From NCBI RefSeq assembly GCF_004803475.1, contig NZ_SRKY01000003.1, positions 186,001 through 250,000 on the forward strand: 64,000 nucleotides of DNA, given 5' to 3'. Shown here piece after piece: positions 35,615 through 43,550 of this stretch. Position 1 is the stretch's first letter. Each line of letters starts with the position of its first letter. The position numbers and the translations under genes were made by a program. The notes under the pieces were generated by a model that saw only the letters and a program-made list of their open reading frames with translations, did no database searches and was not told the DNA's origin. Source of the stretch: Aliishimia ponticola. GTDB lineage: Bacteria > Pseudomonadota > Alphaproteobacteria > Rhodobacterales > Rhodobacteraceae.

Positions 35615-36430
35615 ATGACCAAGGAAACTCCGGAAGGCGACCGCATCGCCAAGGTTTTGTCGCGGGCCGGGATCGCCTCGCGCCGGGAAGCCGAACGCAT
35701 GATCGAAGCCGGGCGTGTGACCGTCAACGGCAAGGTCATCACGCGCGCCGCGCTGAACGTGACGGACAAGGATACAATCACCGTCGACGGGAAGCTGGTG
35801 GGCGAACCGGACCCGCCGCGCCTGTGGCTGTATCACAAGCCCGCCGGGCTGGTGACGACCACGAAGGACGAACAGGGGCGGCCCACGATCTTTGACGACC
35901 TGCCGGAGGATTTGCCTCGGGTGATGACTGTCGGACGGCTCGATCTCAATTCCGAAGGCCTGCTGCTGCTGACCAATGATGGCGGCATCAAACGGCAATT
36001 GGAACTGCCGCAAACCGGGTGGCTGCGGCGCTACCGGGTGCGTATCCACGGGCGGCCCACGGATGACACCTTTGCCCCGCTGCGCGATGGGATCACGGTG
36101 GACGGGCAGAGATTCCTGCCCATGCAGATCACGCTGGATCGCCAGCAAGGGGCGAATGCGTGGGTCACGGTGGGCCTGCGCGAAGGCAAGAACCGCGAGA
36201 TTCGCCGCGCCATGGACGATATCGGCCTGTCGGTGAACCGGCTGATCCGCGTCTCTTACGGCCCATTCCAGCTGGGACAGCTCAAGCAGGGCGAGGTCGA
36301 AGAGATCCGCCGCCGCGTGCTGCGCGACCAGTTGGGACTGGAGGCGCAAGAGCCCGGCCCCGCCCCGGCCCGCCGCCAGGTCAGCCGCCGCCCGCGTGGC
36401 CGAAAGGGCGCGCCCGGCAGCCGCGGATGA
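35615..36430 (+). CDS. rluB: 23S rRNA pseudouridine synthase, RluB-like
   Basis: 271 residues. N-terminal S4 domain (KVLSRAGIASRREAERMIEAGRVTVNG, about 10-40), catalytic core with the active Asp in VGRLDLNSEGLLLLTNDG (about residue 110), and the EGKNREIRRAMDDIG motif near 190. The RsuA/RluB/RluE/RluF group; the basic Arg/Pro-rich tail (PAPARRQVSRRPRGRKGAPG) is typical of RluB. It modifies U2605-type sites in helix 93 of 23S rRNA in characterised members; the exact target here is inferred. Confidence 0.9.
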   Translation: MTKETPEGDRIAKVLSRAGIASRREAERMIEAGRVTVNGKVITRAALNVTDKDTITVDGKLVGEPDPPRLWLYHKPAGLVTTTKDEQGRPTIFDDLPEDLPRVMTVGRLDLNSEGLLLLTNDGGIKRQLELPQTGWLRRYRVRIHGRPTDDTFAPLRDGITVDGQRFLPMQITLDRQQGANAWVTVGLREGKNREIRRAMDDIGLSVNRLIRVSYGPFQLGQLKQGEVEEIRRRVLRDQLGLEAQEPGPAPARRQVSRRPRGRKGAPGSRG

Positions 36431-36542
36431 TGCGAGATATGGCAATTTCCCCTTGTACCCCAACCCACCGTCACACATTTCCATTAGGCCCGCGCTTGGC
36501 AGAGCGCTGCGCTGCGGCTAGACTTCGTTCCGGGGGGCCTGA

Positions 36543-36632
36543 ATGAAAACGACCCAAGTCCAGAAGATCGCCTATGTGGCGTTGATCGTGCTGATGTTCG
36601 GCACCTGCACCGGCTGGCTGGGAGGCTTGTGA
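36543..36632 (+). CDS. 29-residue single-TM small protein
   Basis: MKTTQVQKIAYVALIVLMF then a Cys and a short WLGGL end: a polar head and one TM helix. It starts behind a GGGGGG stretch, and its stop is 4 bases before the XpaC-like gene, whose GGAGG ribosome site (36621-36625) lies inside it. It is too short for ordinary ORF calls, but the position, hydrophobic profile and spacing support translation. It is the first gene of the 36.5-42.7 kb cluster and may act as a leader or as a small membrane partner. Confidence 0.6.
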   Translation: MKTTQVQKIAYVALIVLMFGTCTGWLGGL

Positions 36633-36636
36633 CCTC

Positions 36637-37539
36637 ATGAACAAACGCTATGGCGGCAAATACAGCCCGGATGGCAGCTTTGACCAAGGCGCCGACGGCA
36701 AAGAGGCAGCACAGACGCCGATTGCCCCGCGGATCGAGGTCAACCCGGTCGGCGCGCGCGCCAACGTGCTGTTCATCCCGGCGATTCCGCTGGTGTTCAC
36801 TACGTTGAACAATGGCGCTGTGGGGATGGCTCTGGGCCTTGTGGGCGCGGGTCTGCTGACGCTGGCGGCGTTTTTGCTGCGTGGTGGCCTGGAAGCGGCG
36901 GCCGAGTATGAGGCCCGCCGGGTCGCGCGCCGCCCCGCCTTTCCGCGCAAGATGGCGGCATCGCTGCTGACCGGATTGGGGGTTTGCGCGGCGACGCTGG
37001 CGCATGGTCATCCGCTTCTTGGGGCGTTGATCTTTGGCGCTGCGGCAGGCGCGCTGCACGTGGCGGCCTTTGGCATCGACCCGCTGCGCAACAAGGGAAT
37101 GGAGGGCATCGATACCTTCCAGCAAGACCGCGTCGCCCGTGTTGTGGACGAGGCGGAAAAGCACCTCAATGCCATGGAAGACGCACTACGCCGCGCAGGC
37201 GACCGCCGGGCCGAGGCCGCAGCCGAACAATTCCGCGCCACGGTCCGCGATCTGGTGCGCACGGTCGAAGAAGACCCGCGCGACCTGACGGCGGCGCGCA
37301 AGTATCTGGGCGTGTACCTGATTGGCGCGCGCGACGCTGCCGTGAAGTTCGCCGACCTGAACGCCCGCGCGCAAAACCCTGAAGCACAACAGAAATTCAT
37401 CGCTTTGCTGAGCGATTTGCAGAACAACTTTGCCGCCAAGACCCGCGCGCTGATGGCCGATAGCCAGACCGATCTGGACATCGAAATCAGCGTCCTGCGG
37501 GACCGGTTGGCGCGCGAAGGCGTAAGACTAGACACCTAA
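36637..37539 (+). CDS. XpaC-like protein ('5-bromo-4-chloroindolyl phosphate hydrolysis' family)
   Basis: 300 residues. Two hydrophobic pairs lie at about 40-75 and 100-145; the C-terminal 150 residues are helical and charged. XpaC and TelA lie together in many genomes; the historical name came from a screen and does not prove phosphatase activity. The central segment RVARVVDEAEKHLNAMEDALRRAG and the following coil-prone stretch suggest assembly at the membrane. It precedes telA by 26 bp in the same operon. Confidence 0.8.
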   Translation: MNKRYGGKYSPDGSFDQGADGKEAAQTPIAPRIEVNPVGARANVLFIPAIPLVFTTLNNGAVGMALGLVGAGLLTLAAFLLRGGLEAAAEYEARRVARRPAFPRKMAASLLTGLGVCAATLAHGHPLLGALIFGAAAGALHVAAFGIDPLRNKGMEGIDTFQQDRVARVVDEAEKHLNAMEDALRRAGDRRAEAAAEQFRATVRDLVRTVEEDPRDLTAARKYLGVYLIGARDAAVKFADLNARAQNPEAQQKFIALLSDLQNNFAAKTRALMADSQTDLDIEISVLRDRLAREGVRLDT

Positions 37540-37565
37540 AAAGTGACCTGAACGAGGAAGAACCA

Positions 37566-38762
37566 ATGTCCGACAACGTGCGCCAAAAAGCCGAGGCCGC
37601 CCTGGCCGAGGTGGAGGAAGTCACCGCAATGATCCTGCCGGAACCCGGTGCAGCAGCGGATATCGTTCCGCTTGAGCAGGCCGATCCGGCCCTCACCGCC
37701 GAGATCAACGCACGCATGGACGAAATAGACATGGAGGATACCAACTCCATCGTGTCCTTCGGCTCTGCCGCGCAGGCCGAATTGCAGGAAATCAGCCAAT
37801 CGATGCTGTCGGGCGTGCGCAACAAGGATGTTGGCCCCGCCGGCGACAGCCTGCGCAATATCGTCACCACGATCCGCGGCTTCTCCGTGTCGGAACTGGA
37901 TGTGCGCCGGGACCGGACATGGTGGGAAAAGCTTCTGGGCCGCGCCGCGCCTTTCGCCAAGTTCACCGCCCGCTTCGAAGAAGTGCAGGGCCAGATCGAC
38001 CGCATCACCGACGATTTGCTGGGCCACGAACATGTGCTGCTGAAAGATATCAAATCGCTCGACCTGCTTTATGACAAGACGCTGCAATTCTACGATGAGC
38101 TGGCGCTTTATATCGCGGCGGGGGAAGCCAAGCTGGGCGTGCTGGACGGCACGGACATCCCCGCCAAGGAGGCCGCCGTTCAGGCCGCGCCCGAGGCCGA
38201 TCAGGTGATGGCGGCGCAGGAATTGCGCGACCTGCGCGCGGCCCGCGACGATCTGGAGCGCCGCGTTCACGACCTGAAACTGACGCGGCAGGTGACGATG
38301 CAATCGCTGCCCTCCATCCGGCTGGTGCAGGAAAACGACAAATCGCTGGTCACGAAAATCAACTCGACGCTCGTCAACACCGTGCCGCTTTGGGAAACCC
38401 AACTGGCGCAGGCTGTCACCATCCAGCGCTCGGCGGAAGCTGCGGCGGCGGTGCGCGACGCCAATGACCTGACCAACGAATTGCTGACTGCGAATGCCAA
38501 GAACCTGCGCGACAGCAACAAGATGATCCGTCAGGAAATGGAACGCGGCGTCTTTGATATCGAAGCGGTGAAGAAGGCCAATGCGGATCTGATCGGCACG
38601 ATCGAGGAAAGCCTGCAAATCGCGGACGAAGGCAAACGCAAGCGGGCCGAAGCCGAAACCGAACTCAAGAAGATGGAAGCGGAACTGCGCGATACGCTGG
38701 CCTCTGCCAAGTCGCGCCGCGACGGCGTTGGCGACAATGCCGGAACGGCGGTGCCCGCTTGA
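37566..38762 (+). CDS. telA: Toxic anion resistance protein TelA
   Basis: 398 residues, full-length TelA-family protein (PF05816), all-helical and highly charged. FGSAAQAELQEISQSMLSGVRNKDVGPAGDSLRNIVTTIRGF is the family N-terminal core; the middle is coiled (about 200-330) and it contains SLPSIRLVQENDKSLVTKI. Cytoplasmic. TelA proteins confer tellurite or cell-envelope-antibiotic tolerance by an unknown route. Together with the XpaC-like gene upstream it forms the conserved core of this cluster. Confidence 0.92.
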   Translation: MSDNVRQKAEAALAEVEEVTAMILPEPGAAADIVPLEQADPALTAEINARMDEIDMEDTNSIVSFGSAAQAELQEISQSMLSGVRNKDVGPAGDSLRNIVTTIRGFSVSELDVRRDRTWWEKLLGRAAPFAKFTARFEEVQGQIDRITDDLLGHEHVLLKDIKSLDLLYDKTLQFYDELALYIAAGEAKLGVLDGTDIPAKEAAVQAAPEADQVMAAQELRDLRAARDDLERRVHDLKLTRQVTMQSLPSIRLVQENDKSLVTKINSTLVNTVPLWETQLAQAVTIQRSAEAAAAVRDANDLTNELLTANAKNLRDSNKMIRQEMERGVFDIEAVKKANADLIGTIEESLQIADEGKRKRAEAETELKKMEAELRDTLASAKSRRDGVGDNAGTAVPA

Positions 38763-38775
38763 ACGGCGGCGCGGC

Positions 38776-39717
38776 ATGACGGCGCGGCGGCGCATCGCGG
38801 CGCGCGCGCTGGCCGGGCTGGCCCTGGTTGGCCTGACCGCGTGCGATCTGATGGCACCGGTTGAACCGGTGCTGACGCCGCGCGCGCGTCCGCCGCAAGT
38901 CACCGCGCCGGAAAGCCAGGAAACGCCCGAGCCCTCAGCCAACAGCGAGGCGCTGCGCGCCTACTACGCCCAGGTTCTGCGCGACGGTCAGACGCGCGGG
39001 CTGCTCCGCACCGATGGCGGCGGGCCGGACACGCCCTATACGGTCGACATGCTGGTGCGCAATTTCGAACAAATCTCGTTCTTCAGCGAATATGAGCGCG
39101 GCGAACAACCGCTTCGGCGGTGGGATGGTCCGGTACGGCTGCAGGCGCGCTTTGGGGCGTCGGCCTCGCCCGCGCTGCGCACCCGCGATACCAACGCGCT
39201 GATTGGCTACGCGAACCGGCTGGCACGGGTCACGGGCCACCCTATCTCCGTCTCTGCCGACCAGCCCAATTTCCTTGTATTCTTCGTCAGCGAGGACGAG
39301 CGCGCGGGCGCGATCGAGGAAATGCGCCGTATCGAGCCGCGGCTTGACGGGCGCACGCTGGCCTCCATCACCAACCTGCCGCGATCGACCTATTGCCTGG
39401 TGGTGGCGATGACCGATGCGGGCGATGCCGCCCGGTATCGCCGGGCCTTTGCGATCATTCGGACGGAACAGCCCGACCTGATGCGGCTCTCCTGTATCCA
39501 CGAGGAAGTCGCGCAAGGCTTGGGGCTGGCCAACGATTCCCCCTATGCGCGCCCGTCGATCTTCAATGATGATGACGAATTCGCACTGCTGACCAGCCAT
39601 GATGAAAAGCTGCTAAAGCTGCATTACGACCCGCGCCTGACCACCGGCATGGGCGCAGAGCAAGCGCTGCCCATCGCGCGCAACATTGCCGCCGATCTGA
39701 TGGCACCGGGATCGTAA
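38776..39717 (+). CDS. DUF2927 lipoprotein
   Basis: 313 residues from the ATG at 38776, 14 bases after telA stops. Signal peptide with lipobox LVGLTAC (Cys about 23), then a Pro-rich spacer, then a DUF2927 domain (about 75-270, with YTVDMLVRNFEQISFFSEY, LRRWDGPVRLQ, ASITNLPRSTYCL and CIHEEVAQGLGLANDSP). The HEEVAQ-LG segment resembles a zinc-metalloprotease-like HExxx motif but lacks the second His in place. An inner-membrane or outer-membrane lipoprotein, perhaps sensing or processing at the envelope. Confidence 0.85.
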   Translation: MTARRRIAARALAGLALVGLTACDLMAPVEPVLTPRARPPQVTAPESQETPEPSANSEALRAYYAQVLRDGQTRGLLRTDGGGPDTPYTVDMLVRNFEQISFFSEYERGEQPLRRWDGPVRLQARFGASASPALRTRDTNALIGYANRLARVTGHPISVSADQPNFLVFFVSEDERAGAIEEMRRIEPRLDGRTLASITNLPRSTYCLVVAMTDAGDAARYRRAFAIIRTEQPDLMRLSCIHEEVAQGLGLANDSPYARPSIFNDDDEFALLTSHDEKLLKLHYDPRLTTGMGAEQALPIARNIAADLMAPGS

Positions 39718-39844
39718 CCTTCGCGATCCGGGGGCCCGGTCACTCCGGCCTCACCTTGGCTGACGGCTTCGTGTCCGCGCATTGCACCGCCCCGGCGCGC
39801 CCATATTTCCGCTGCGTAACATATGCCATCGCAAAGGAACTGCC

Positions 39845-40321
39845 GTGCCCGCTTCGCCCCCTCTCAATTCTATCGTGCTGGCAGGTCTTGCCGGCGAACT
39901 CGCCTTCGAAGCCTATGCGTGGCTACTGTCCCCGGTCCTGTTCGGCGTCACGTTGGAGCCCGCCCGGCTGGTGACTGCGCTGACGCAGATGGGAACCGGC
40001 ATTGCCCTGCCCTATGGCGCGGCCTTTGCGCTGCATTTTGCCATCGGCGCGCTGGTGTTTCCGGCCATTGTCTGGATGACCCACGCCCGCACCGGGCTGA
40101 AATTGCCGCTGGCGGGCGCGGTGGCCGGGCTGGGCCTTTGGTTCGTGGCCCAAGGCCTGCTGGCCCCGGTGGTGGGGCGCAGCTTCATGATGGGATTCGG
40201 TGCCTATACGCAATCGTCCTTCATCGGCCATGTCGGCATGGCGGCCCTGATGGGCGGGCTGATGGTCTGGTTCATGGCGCGCTTTGCGCCGCCGCGCAAA
40301 AATGAGGTGCCACTGGGCTGA
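39845..40321 (+). CDS. Four-helix membrane protein, unknown
   Basis: 158 residues from a GTG at 39845 behind an AAAGGA site; a longer frame upstream has no membrane character. Four hydrophobic helices at about 8-28, 40-75, 85-110 and 125-150. No family recognised. It lies between the DUF2927 lipoprotein and the SPFH gene in the cluster; a 127-bp gap precedes it, so it may have its own promoter. Confidence 0.7.
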   Translation: MPASPPLNSIVLAGLAGELAFEAYAWLLSPVLFGVTLEPARLVTALTQMGTGIALPYGAAFALHFAIGALVFPAIVWMTHARTGLKLPLAGAVAGLGLWFVAQGLLAPVVGRSFMMGFGAYTQSSFIGHVGMAALMGGLMVWFMARFAPPRKNEVPLG

Positions 40322-40397
40322 TTTCCCCGGCAAAAACCCGTCGCGCTTCGTCGCCCACCCGTCTATAAGGTTCGCAGATTTTCAGACGGGTGGGACA

Positions 40398-41516
40398 ATG
40401 GGCATCTTCGACTTTCTTTCCGGCGAATTCATCGACGTCATTCACTGGGTGGATGATACGCGCGATACGATGGTCTGGCGCTTTGAACGCGAAGGGCACG
40501 AGATCAAGTACGGCGCAAAGCTGACCGTGCGCGAAGGGCAAGCCGCCGTCTTTGTCCATGAAGGCCAATTGGCGGATGTGTTCACCCCCGGTCTTTACAT
40601 GCTTGAGACCAACAACATGCCGATCCTGACCACGCTTCAGCATTGGGATCACGGCTTTCGCAGCCCGTTCAAGTCCGAGATTTACTTCGTCAACACGACC
40701 CGGTTCAACGACCTGAAATGGGGCACGAAGAACCCGATCATCTGCCGCGACCCGGAATTCGGCCCGGTGCGTCTGCGCGCCTTTGGCACCTATTCGGTAA
40801 AAGTCGCCGACCCCGCACGTTTTCTGGTCGAAATCGTCGGCACCGATGGCGAATTCACCATGGACGAGATCAGCTTTCAGATCCGCAACGTGATCGTGCA
40901 GGAATTCTCCCGCACCATTGCGCGGGCGGGCATTCCGGTGATGGACATGGCCGCCAACACCCGTGAATTGGGGCAGCTTGTGGCCAAGGAAATCGGGCCG
41001 CGGATCGCGGAATATGGTCTGGCCCTGCCAGAGCTTTATATCGAAAACATCTCGCTCCCGCCTGCGGTCGAAGCGGTTCTGGACAAGCGGTCGTCGATGG
41101 GCGTGATCGGAAACCTGGGCGAATACATGCAGTTCCAGGCGGCCGAAGCCTTAGGCCGCGATGGGGCCGGCGCCGGGGCCATTCAGGCCGGCATGGGCGC
41201 GGCCATGGGGATGCAGATCGCGCATCAGGCCGCCGGTCCATGGGGCACGCGCCCCGCGCAAGTCGAAGCGGCCCCCGCGCCCGCCGCGCTGGCACCGCCT
41301 CCGCCGCCCGTCGAACATGTCTGGCATATCGCTGAGGCCGGGCAAACCAAGGGTCCGTTCTCCAAGGCGCGGATGGGCCAGATGGTCGCCGATGGCGCGC
41401 TGACGCGGGAAACCTATGTCTGGACCCCCGGACAGGACGGCTGGTTGCGGGCCGAGGACGTGACCGAACTGGCGCAGCTTTTCACCATTCTGCCGCCCCC
41501 GCCGCCGGGGGCTTGA
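40398..41516 (+). CDS. SPFH-domain protein with C-terminal GYF_2 domain
   Basis: 372 residues. N-terminal IFDFLSGEFIDVIHWVDDTRDTMVWRFEREGHEIKYGAKLTVREGQAAVFVHEGQLADVFTPG is the YdjI/virion-core type of SPFH (prohibitin/flotillin-like) and extends to about residue 260. A Gly/Ala-rich and Pro-rich linker (PAPAALAPPPPP) follows. The C-terminal 60 residues (VWHIAEAGQTKGPFSKARMGQMVADGALTRETYVWTPGQDGWLRAEDV) match the GYF_2 fold, which binds proline-rich or signal sequences. Likely membrane-associated scaffold; 34 bp before the zinc-ribbon gene. Confidence 0.88.
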   Translation: MGIFDFLSGEFIDVIHWVDDTRDTMVWRFEREGHEIKYGAKLTVREGQAAVFVHEGQLADVFTPGLYMLETNNMPILTTLQHWDHGFRSPFKSEIYFVNTTRFNDLKWGTKNPIICRDPEFGPVRLRAFGTYSVKVADPARFLVEIVGTDGEFTMDEISFQIRNVIVQEFSRTIARAGIPVMDMAANTRELGQLVAKEIGPRIAEYGLALPELYIENISLPPAVEAVLDKRSSMGVIGNLGEYMQFQAAEALGRDGAGAGAIQAGMGAAMGMQIAHQAAGPWGTRPAQVEAAPAPAALAPPPPPVEHVWHIAEAGQTKGPFSKARMGQMVADGALTRETYVWTPGQDGWLRAEDVTELAQLFTILPPPPPGA

Positions 41517-41550
41517 TCGCCTTTGCACCGCTGAACAGGCAAGCTGGATC

Positions 41551-42660
41551 ATGATGGATCTGACGGACGTCGCCCCGCTGGAAGAGCACCGATTCCCCTG
41601 TGACACATGCGGGGCCGATCTGCGCTATGATCCCGGCGAGGGCCAGCTGATCTGCGACCATTGCGGTAACACCGTGCGCCTGCACGAACGCGCCCAAACG
41701 CGGCACGCGCTGCGCGAGCTTGATCTGCGCGCGGCGCTGAACGACCGCCTGCCGCAGGCAGATATGGAAGAAACCCGCGTGTCCGTCTGCCCCAATTGCG
41801 CGGCGCAGGTGGAGTTCGACCCGGACGTACATGCCGCCGAATGCCCCTTTTGTGCGACGCCCGTGGTCACGGATACCGGTATCCACCGCCATATCAAACC
41901 GCGCGGTCTTCTGCCCTTCGCGCTGGATGAAAAACAGGCGCGCGCGGCAATGAACGATTGGCTTGGATCGCTTTGGTTCGCCCCGAACGGGTTGCAGGAC
42001 TATGCGCGCAAGGGCCGGAAGATGCAGGGGATCTACGTCCCCTACTGGACCTTCGATGCGCAGACCCAATCGCGATATTCCGGCCAGCGCGGCACGGTGT
42101 ATTACGAAACGCGGATGGTGCAGCGCGACGGCAGGCGGGTGCAGCAACGGGTTCAGAAGGTTCGCTGGACCAATGTGCGCGGTCGGATTGCGCGGTTTTT
42201 CGACGATGTGGTTGTACTGGCCTCTCGGTCTTTGCCCAAACGTTATACCGACGCGCTGGAGCCGTGGGATCTGACCGCGCTGGAGCCGTACGCGCCAGAG
42301 TACCTCGCCGGGTTTCGTGCCGAGGGCTATACGGTCGAGCTGGGCGAAGGCTTTGCCGAAGCGCGCGCCATCATGGACCGGGTGATCGTGCGCGACGTCA
42401 AGTTCGATATCGGCGGGGACCGGCAGCGCATCCATGATATCGACACCGATCTGAGCGATATGACGTTCAAGCATGTGCTTTTGCCGGTCTGGCTGGCGGC
42501 CTATAAATATCGCGGCACCACCTACCGTTTCGTGGTGAATGGGCAATCGGGCCGTGTGCAGGGCGAGCGCCCTTGGTCGGCCTGGAAGATCACCTTCGCC
42601 GTGTTGGCCATCGCGGTGCTGGCTGCGGTTTTCGGATATCTCTACGCCCAAAACGCTTGA
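41551..42660 (+). CDS. Double zinc-ribbon protein with C-terminal TM helix
   Basis: 369 residues. Two CX2C pairs form zinc ribbon 1 (CDTCG about 17-21 and CDHCG about 34-38); a second ribbon has CPNCA and CPFCA (about 80-105). The middle (110-340) is a beta-rich region with WFAPNGLQDYAR, VPYWTFDAQTQSRYSGQRG and KRYTDALEPWDL, seen in proteins annotated as 'TFIIB-type zinc finger' or 'primosomal protein N'-like' beside SPFH genes. A single TM helix (WKITFAVLAIAVLAAVFGYLY) anchors the C-terminus. It is not a transcription factor; likely part of the SPFH membrane assembly. Confidence 0.85.
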   Translation: MMDLTDVAPLEEHRFPCDTCGADLRYDPGEGQLICDHCGNTVRLHERAQTRHALRELDLRAALNDRLPQADMEETRVSVCPNCAAQVEFDPDVHAAECPFCATPVVTDTGIHRHIKPRGLLPFALDEKQARAAMNDWLGSLWFAPNGLQDYARKGRKMQGIYVPYWTFDAQTQSRYSGQRGTVYYETRMVQRDGRRVQQRVQKVRWTNVRGRIARFFDDVVVLASRSLPKRYTDALEPWDLTALEPYAPEYLAGFRAEGYTVELGEGFAEARAIMDRVIVRDVKFDIGGDRQRIHDIDTDLSDMTFKHVLLPVWLAAYKYRGTTYRFVVNGQSGRVQGERPWSAWKITFAVLAIAVLAAVFGYLYAQNA

Positions 42661-42698
42661 TGCGGATGGCTCTTCGCGCGGGTGGTCCGCCGTGGATT

Positions 42699-42719
42699 GA
42701 GTATTTGTGGAACAATGAA
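42699..42719 (-). repeat. Repeated intergenic motif, copy C
   Basis: GAGTATTT-GTG-GAACAATGAA on the plus strand, the same orientation as copies A and B, 38 nt after the zinc-ribbon stop. Unlike A and B no minus-strand gene ends 8 nt away. The rest of the 212-bp gap to the nitroreductase shows no other feature. Confidence 0.7.
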
Positions 42720-42872
42720 GAGGATTGGCGCGCCCTTGGCCAGCGGCAGCCAGTTTGGGTCGGCGGGGGGGCGCCTTTGTCCGGAACGGGCAAATAGTGC
42801 CAACCGGCAACCGGGCCATTTGCGCGTGTTTTTTCCGCTGGACGCGCCGCTGCGCCTTGATAGGGTCACGGC

Positions 42873-43550
42873 ATGACCAGCCCTTCTGATGCCCTGCATT
42901 CACTTGCCACGGAACGATTTTCCTGCCGCGCCTATTTGACCGATCCGGTGGGCGAGGATGTGATTACGCAGATTGTGGATACTGCCCGGCATGTGCCCAG
43001 CTGGTGCAATGCGCAGCCTTGGCAGCTTGAGATCACCCGCGGCGACGAGACGGACCTGTTCCGCGACGCGCTTTACACTTATGCGACGGCGGGTGCGGCC
43101 CCTGCCCCGGACCTGACGTGGCCGGATGGGTATCCCGGTATTTACGGTGCGCGGCGGCGGGAATGTGGCTGGCAGCTTTACGAGGCTGTCGGGATCGAGA
43201 AAGGGGACCGTGCTGGATCGGCCCGGCAGATGATGGAGAACTTCCGCCTGTTCGGTGCGCCGCATGTTGCGATCCTGCATTCGCCTGCAGCGCTTGGCCC
43301 CTACGGCGCGATGGATTGCGGCGGTTTTGTTACCGCGTTTTGTTTGGCGGCGCAGGCGCGGGGTGTCGCGAGCATTCCGCAGGCGGCTGTGGCGTCCCAT
43401 GCGCCATTCGTGCGCGATTGGTTTGGCATTGGCGAGGATCGGTTGATCTTGTGCGCGATCTCCTTCGGGTGGCCGGACCTGAACCATCCGGCGAACGGGT
43501 TTCGCACCAACCGGGCGGCGCCGGACGCTTTGATCAACTGGAAGGGCTGA
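42873..43550 (+). CDS. Nitroreductase-family flavoprotein
   Basis: 225 residues. FMN-dependent, NAD(P)H-linked fold: the N-terminal [43 protein letters not shown] (phosphate-binding Arg and Ser/Asn around PSWCN) and the C-terminal CAISFGWPD motif. It reduces nitro compounds or enones; physiological substrate unknown. It stops one base before the dtd ATG, so both are coupled. Confidence 0.9.

Follow-up and report, generated by a model that had tools for sequence, protein, structure and literature searches.

A conserved gene row joining XpaC and TelA to an SPFH-GYF protein and a membrane zinc-ribbon protein: a candidate membrane-stress module of Rhodobacteraceae

Introduction

What is known of the TelA and XpaC families has long been limited to phenotype: tellurite, nisin and envelope-stress regulons. 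In Bacillus subtilis, sigma-W governs both the xpaC-yaaN(telA) and the pspA-ydjGHI operon (PMC3498285). The second of these encodes SPFH, zinc-ribbon-transmembrane and TPM proteins, namely YdjI, YdjG and YdjH (PMC11237479, where the SPFH protein is written YdjL); YdjI and YdjG/H are required to bring PspA to the membrane, and without YdjG/H peptidoglycan synthesis becomes delocalised (PMC8581546). The Lactococcus lactis xpaC-telA genes belong to the CesSR envelope-stress regulon, and their deletion partly impairs growth when a membrane protein is overproduced (PMC3139573). In Listeria, a telA mutant shows a 4-fold increase in nisin sensitivity and a 2-fold increase in tellurite sensitivity (PMC12791056). 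Here, we analyse a row of genes in the alphaproteobacterium Aliishimia ponticola (contig NZ_SRKY01000003.1; positions are given within the stretch of 64,000 nucleotides analysed, hereafter the window), in which xpaC and telA stand beside genes for an SPFH protein and a zinc-ribbon protein. Thus, two sets of genes that B. subtilis co-regulates are united in one operon.

We found no paper in the open-access literature that joins "toxic anion resistance" with SPFH, and two large surveys of the Psp system make no mention of TelA or toxic-anion proteins. A single paper contains both "flotillin" and "toxic anion resistance", each of them once.

A conserved unit of five genes, with a sixth in Rhodobacteraceae

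Five of the seven plus-strand genes form one conserved unit, encoding a small membrane peptide, XpaC, TelA, an SPFH protein with a C-terminal GYF_2 domain and a double zinc-ribbon protein; in Rhodobacteraceae the DUF2927 gene is the sixth. The seven consecutive frames of the original prediction were all found, as were the gaps of 4, 26, 13, 127, 76 and 34 bp between them, taking the starts to be ATG 38776 (DUF2927), GTG 39845 (a 158-residue membrane protein) and ATG 40398 (SPFH). Pfam matches agree with the identities it had assigned to XpaC, TelA, DUF2927, SPFH with GYF_2 and the zinc-ribbon protein:

36543..36632, plus strand: 29-residue peptide with a single transmembrane segment, MKTTQVQKIAYVALIVLMFGTCTGWLGGL, first gene in the operon; no Pfam match
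36637..37539, plus strand: XpaC-like membrane protein with a C-terminal helical domain; PF10112, E=3.4e-21
37566..38762, plus strand: TelA, a cytoplasmic long-helix protein; PF05816, E=5e-107
38776..39717, plus strand: DUF2927, predicted periplasmic lipoprotein, a Rhodobacterales accessory; PF11150, E=4e-61
39845..40321, plus strand: 158-residue protein with several transmembrane segments, outside the system; no Pfam match
40398..41516, plus strand: SPFH protein with a C-terminal GYF_2; PF13421 (Band_7_1), E=2e-101, and PF14237, E=2e-20
41322..41471, plus strand: GYF_2 domain within the SPFH protein, residues 309-358; PF14237
41493..41513, plus strand: Pro-rich C-terminal tail PPPPPGA of the SPFH protein, candidate GYF ligand
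41551..42660, plus strand: double zinc-ribbon protein with a C-terminal transmembrane anchor, YdjG-like; PF11781 ribbon match, E=2e-7

Hydrophobicity places two strong segments in XpaC and one transmembrane helix at the extreme C-terminus of the zinc-ribbon protein, and none in SPFH or TelA. The telA gene is present as a single copy in the genome. None of the five main proteins has a clear homologue among solved structures. A Pfam search of the cluster proteins and their immediate neighbours found no membrane partner of the NfeD/YuaF type, as in flotillin-NfeD operons; the conserved partner of SPFH is the zinc-ribbon protein instead.

To follow the cluster through the family, we sampled 80 Rhodobacteraceae genomes, one per genus, and read 60 loci in detail. 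Of the 80 genomes, 72 contain TelA, 73 SPFH-GYF and 70 the zinc-ribbon protein. SPFH accompanies TelA in 72 of 72 cases, and seven of the eight genomes without TelA lack both SPFH and the zinc-ribbon protein; the eighth (G022), an incomplete assembly, holds SPFH and zinc-ribbon fragments at the start of a contig. In the 60 loci, telA keeps its neighbours in matching order and orientation: xpaC in 59, DUF2927 in 57, SPFH in 57 and the zinc-ribbon gene in 56, a gene order far above chance. We are all but certain that the XpaC-TelA-SPFH-zinc-ribbon operon is real and conserved.

The 158-residue protein, which the original prediction had counted as a four-helix part of the system, does not belong to it. 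None of the 60 family loci retains its gene, and of 100 other genomes 3 encode distant homologues, all away from this cluster, so we regard it as a private insertion. Other insertions are seen further along the row. In 8 of 60 family loci (among them L057, L071, L073, L084, L085 and L087) an unrelated gene of ~175 residues, cytochrome-b561-like by eye, lies between SPFH and the zinc-ribbon gene, and elsewhere the same point holds different insertions.

Conservation beyond the family

Searching genome contigs with a TelA alignment yielded a wider set of 80 loci, selected by TelA likeness and including many metagenome bins. These span Alphaproteobacteria, Gammaproteobacteria (Granulosicoccus, Thiothrix, Leucothrix and Sedimenticola), Campylobacterota (Sulfurovum and others) and one member of the Thermodesulfobacteriota. 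Counting loci with enough flanking sequence, TelA is followed by SPFH in 27 of 31 cases in Alphaproteobacteria, 21 of 34 in Gammaproteobacteria and 11 of 11 in Campylobacterota, and SPFH by the zinc-ribbon gene in 21 of 22, 15 of 17 and 11 of 11, respectively. In most loci outside Rhodobacteraceae, xpaC lies directly 5' of telA. The TelA-SPFH adjacency comes with gaps of a few bases in both Campylobacterota and Alphaproteobacteria. The joint operon posited in the original prediction is therefore borne out by this comparison, its order being kept in three classes of two phyla rather than scattered among relatives, the outcome that was to speak against it. On the TelA tree, ~6 changes are needed to account for the loci without SPFH, as expected if the operon is old and was lost repeatedly, or if it was assembled more than once.

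DUF2927 is confined to Rhodobacterales-like loci in the wider set, and xpaC-telA-SPFH-zinc-ribbon occurs without it in two genomes of other alphaproteobacterial families (L092, L093). The predicted membership of DUF2927 in the system thus holds in Rhodobacterales (57 of 60 family loci) and fails elsewhere, where the four-protein core lacks it. The genome that carries L093 has a second xpaC-telA pair (L094, genome G143), whose telA contains an in-frame TAG.

In another proteobacterial family (L125:7414-10814), the gene after xpaC-telA encodes a strongly diverged SPFH that nonetheless ends in GYF_2. There, a 201-residue orphan accompanies the diverged SPFH-GYF, making this a separate version of the TelA-SPFH link. 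Two further loci place the SPFH-zinc-ribbon pair in other company. In a non-alphaproteobacterial genome (L111:3077-7679) the pair lies directly 3' of a gene for a PBP1C-type transglycosylase/transpeptidase, and on a Vibrio coralliilyticus plasmid (L213:1093-7154) it lies beside divergent genes for TIR-domain and TRAFs-binding-domain proteins.

The SPFH and zinc-ribbon proteins

Judged by their sequences, the SPFH and zinc-ribbon proteins are related to the SPFH-zinc-ribbon-TPM set of Bacillota, that is, to the YdjI/YdjG half of pspA-ydjGHI. Over its full length, the zinc-ribbon protein shares 27% identity with an Enterococcus protein encoded between SPFH and TPM genes (E=4e-40 over 374 residues), and the SPFH protein matches the Enterococcus SPFH of the same type of locus (SPFH-zinc-ribbon-TPM; BLASTP E=9e-10). 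The link to YdjI/YdjG runs through this Enterococcus locus in sequence and reaches B. subtilis pspA-ydjGHI by annotation. Thus, where the original prediction spoke of an uncharacterised system, this half is not wholly so. Eight cysteines of the zinc-ribbon protein (17, 20, 35, 38, 80, 83, 98 and 101) are invariant in 21 aligned proteins, including one from Enterococcus, and its transmembrane helix lies at residues 342-369.

The C-terminal tail of SPFH is also conserved. In the family, 57 of 57 tails have PP within the last 16 residues and 53 of 57 have PPPP; PPPLP, PPPVP or PPPIP tails are found in most full-length proteins of Gammaproteobacteria and Campylobacterota. GYF domains bind Pro-rich peptides, and with a PPPxP tail on the same protein it would be natural for SPFH subunits to be linked to one another or to block themselves; the GYF domain may thus bind the protein's own tail. 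The original prediction had pointed to Pro-rich or peptide-binding features in DUF2927 and the zinc-ribbon protein. The Pro-rich stretch of DUF2927 is an unlikely GYF ligand, because DUF2927 is predicted to be periplasmic and the GYF domain is cytoplasmic. The conserved PPPxP tail is the better candidate.

XpaC, TelA and the micropeptide

The AlphaFold2 (AF2) model of TelA (mean predicted local distance difference test score, pLDDT, 75) contains two long helices, 129-207 and 210-322. Against the PDB, Foldseek and VIA returned generic long-helix matches only (alpha-pore-forming toxins, coiled coils, BAR); the best Z, 12.4, is below the level trusted for helical folds, and no ESCRT-III chain was among the matches listed. 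We therefore make no claim that TelA is ESCRT-III- or BAR-like by fold.

Of 61 family loci, that of the window among them, 54 have a similar single-transmembrane peptide of 22-35 residues 5' of xpaC, the consensus being close to MSxTGLQKLAFVLLIxLILYVSxxGGV. Such a peptide precedes 49 of 66 xpaC genes in the wider set, versus 24 of 1360 random positions, with a split of 24/29 in Gammaproteobacteria, 21/27 in Alphaproteobacteria and 4/9 in Campylobacterota. This micropeptide heading the operon is apparently undescribed, and no family library used names it. In Gammaproteobacteria (for example L139, L141 and L142) it often has ...SCQAL close to its end, resembling a lipobox, and a tiny mature micro-lipoprotein is possible there.

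Upstream of the peptide lies one further feature:

36496..36524, plus strand: candidate operon promoter TTGGCA-17-TAGACT, 18 bp 5' of the peptide start

It is the sole sigma-70-like match in 36300-42900; with 1 found against 1.4 expected, the match is weak alone. A comparable -10 element (CCTAGATT, CCTAAGTT, CCTATATT) occupies the same place in many relatives. In 7 of 12 genomes tested (G005, G020, G031, G038, G043, G067 and G073), the composite TTCCCCCTAGC-N14-18-CCTA occurs just 5' of the operon and nowhere else in the genome. The window does not match this composite, having the related sigma-70-like site at 36496-36524. Known promoter motifs of alphaproteobacteria, of the RpoH-like, EcfG and RpoE types, showed no excess 5' of xpaC over shuffled sequence.

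DUF2927 as a predicted matrixin without zinc ligands

DUF2927 is mentioned by no paper that we found in the open-access literature. Its AF2 model (pLDDT 88.5) predicts a matrixin-like fold across residues 96-288, with the active-site helix retained. The best Foldseek matches are matrix metalloproteases, at a borderline E of ~3e-3, and matrixins make up 50 of the 50 VIA matches listed (Z 9.9-10.8 over ~150 residues, root-mean-square deviation ~3 Å; 3.1 Å over 150 residues at Z ~10.8). Where matrixins such as MMP-7 and karilysin carry HExxHxxGxxH, DUF2927 has EExxQxxGLxxD, with no zinc histidine, and this motif (E243, E244, Q247, G250, L251, D254) is invariant in 25 of 25 sequences. The Met-turn methionine of matrixins also has no counterpart: no Met is conserved between residue 254 and the C-terminal helices, and the conserved stretch reads RPSIFNDDEEF. 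With none of the zinc histidines kept in any of the 25 sequences, DUF2927 is likely to be a pseudo-protease or to have an altered metal site. It is predicted to be a periplasmic lipoprotein with a matrixin fold lacking its zinc ligands. Cysteines C207 and C240 are invariant and may form a periplasmic disulfide.

In one genome of another family (G191, L102:9235-15566), a DUF2927 gene lies ~4.4 kb from a divergent TelA-like gene, on the opposite strand.

Discussion

How might these proteins work together? We envision that the cluster is one conserved transcription unit encoding a membrane-protection device in which TelA is recruited by the SPFH and zinc-ribbon proteins, a reading that we hold to be evenly poised between right and wrong. 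The zinc-ribbon protein, tail-anchored in the inner membrane, would hold a soluble SPFH ring in place, in the way that YdjG/H dock YdjI in B. subtilis, and the SPFH subunits would link through their GYF domains and PPPxP tails. SPFH would gather the long-helix TelA at damaged or crowded membrane, as YdjI gathers PspA, TelA replacing PspA as the effector and XpaC and the small peptide serving as its membrane partners or receptors. In Rhodobacterales, the pseudo-matrixin DUF2927 lipoprotein would sense or bind a ligand in the periplasm, either a peptide or a wall component. The effect of TelA on tellurite sensitivity would be one way in which membrane damage shows itself, and the role of the whole cluster would lie in envelope stress.

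A bolder version goes further, and we hold it tentatively, as somewhat unlikely: XpaC-TelA-SPFH-GYF-zinc-ribbon and the micropeptide would be a PspA-independent membrane-repair machine of Gram-negative bacteria, with TelA as a polymerising or membrane-coating effector functionally equivalent to PspA/ESCRT-III and DUF2927 as the envelope sensor of Rhodobacterales. If true, this would give two decades-old families, TelA and XpaC, their mechanism. PF04012 (PspA/IM30) was not found in the A. ponticola genome, which is 99.9% complete, and PspA scores above cut-off in 16 of 80 family genomes. Thus, given that the cluster is near-universal in the sampled Rhodobacteraceae genera, most of which lack PspA, it may be their general membrane-stress device.

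Several observations weigh against a device of this kind. The 16 family genomes with PspA nearly all carry the TelA-SPFH cluster as well. The row is split into xpaC-telA and SPFH-zinc-ribbon in three family genomes (G004, G018, G062), and recognisable XpaC is missing from Paracoccus-type loci. XpaC-TelA occurs without SPFH-zinc-ribbon in other alphaproteobacterial families and in Chromatiaceae, and SPFH-zinc-ribbon pairs without TelA also exist; neither half therefore strictly needs the other. In B. subtilis, YdjH is the direct anchor of PspA/YdjI, yet no such TPM gene lies near the A. ponticola cluster; among the compared loci, a TPM match was found only in Enterococcus' own locus, the rest of the A. 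ponticola genome not having been searched. Finally, since its structural matches are generic, the TelA fold gives no firm support for a likeness to PspA or ESCRT-III.

Could the cluster serve another purpose? Quality control of membrane proteins and wall machinery, with SPFH-zinc-ribbon scaffolding proteases or wall synthases and XpaC-TelA acting in a chaperone-like way and no PspA-like patching, is an unlikely explanation but one of some substance. SPFH proteins are known to scaffold proteases and wall enzymes, and one SPFH-zinc-ribbon pair lies 3' of the PBP1C-type gene in L111. The delocalised peptidoglycan synthesis that follows YdjG/H loss (PMC8581546) and the impaired growth of the L. 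lactis xpaC-telA deletion at membrane-protein overproduction (PMC3139573) also fit it. However, the operon conserves no protease or wall gene, and a penicillin-binding-protein neighbour was identified at that one locus only. A toxic-oxyanion (tellurite/metal) resistance operon, in which the zinc ribbons and XpaC would handle metal or oxyanion chemistry, seems distinctly improbable to us. It draws on the family name of TelA, "toxic anion resistance", and on the 2-fold tellurite sensitivity of the Listeria mutant, but the same mutant is hit harder by nisin (4-fold; PMC12791056), xpaC-telA is controlled by envelope-stress regulators (PMC3498285, PMC3139573), the operon has no conserved reductase, transporter or metal sensor, and a single-copy set in 90% of family genera is unlike a mobile resistance gene.

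More improbable still is a guard against external membrane attack by bacteriocins, phage or predatory toxins, in which DUF2927 would be a pseudo-protease that serves as a decoy or binds inhibitors. The nisin phenotypes of telA and pspA-type genes would suit such a guard, as would the decoy-like retention of a predicted matrixin fold without zinc ligands and the TIR-domain gene next to SPFH-zinc-ribbon on the Vibrio plasmid; but that neighbour is a single case, and nearly all genera of the family have the cluster, which changes slowly among them and does not resemble an island. Least probable of all, we think, are two independent housekeeping pairs that are neighbours only and share no joint function. 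Each pair is indeed also found alone, and in genomes where the pairs are split DUF2927 accompanies either of them, yet their adjacency persists between Campylobacterota and Alphaproteobacteria with few-base gaps, their presence and absence coincide in the family, and even the highly diverged SPFH-GYF of L125 comes after xpaC-telA.

Under the membrane-protection reading, the genetic tie of TelA to the SPFH-zinc-ribbon half of the PspA system across two phyla makes the role of TelA testable, with its partners named. The stress module also gains two uncharacterised families, the transmembrane micropeptide and DUF2927.

Comparison with known systems

The Firmicutes pairs (B. subtilis xpaC-yaaN, L. 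lactis llmg_1115-1116 and Listeria lmo1966-1967) comprise the same two families in the same order as here. In the Bacillota literature, however, they stand apart from SPFH-zinc-ribbon genes, whereas here all lie in one operon with a conserved transmembrane peptide first. A second group of SPFH systems, the polyamine-linked SPFH-DUF4178 operons with DUF350 and sometimes PspA (Ravi et al. 2024), has a related Band_7_1 SPFH. L121 is of this type: its SPFH, with no recognised GYF at the C-terminus, precedes a larger, DUF4178-containing zinc-ribbon protein, and a DUF350 gene and a spermidine-synthase gene lie nearby, not XpaC-TelA.

The closest likeness is to pspA-ydjGHI, where, as here, the gene for a cytoplasmic SPFH protein adjoins one for a protein that carries two zinc ribbons at its N-terminus and a transmembrane helix at its C-terminus. 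The A. ponticola SPFH ends in GYF_2 and a PPPxP tail, whereas for that of B. subtilis a C-terminal zinc ribbon is described, and XpaC, TelA and a small transmembrane peptide are found here instead of PspA and TPM. This is a modular exchange, with XpaC-TelA in place of PspA-TPM. The cluster is outside the Psp system proper, having no PspA and no TPM nearby, but it probably works like Psp. It brings together known protein families in what is apparently an undescribed way, and can be counted as a variant among the SPFH-based modules for membrane stress.

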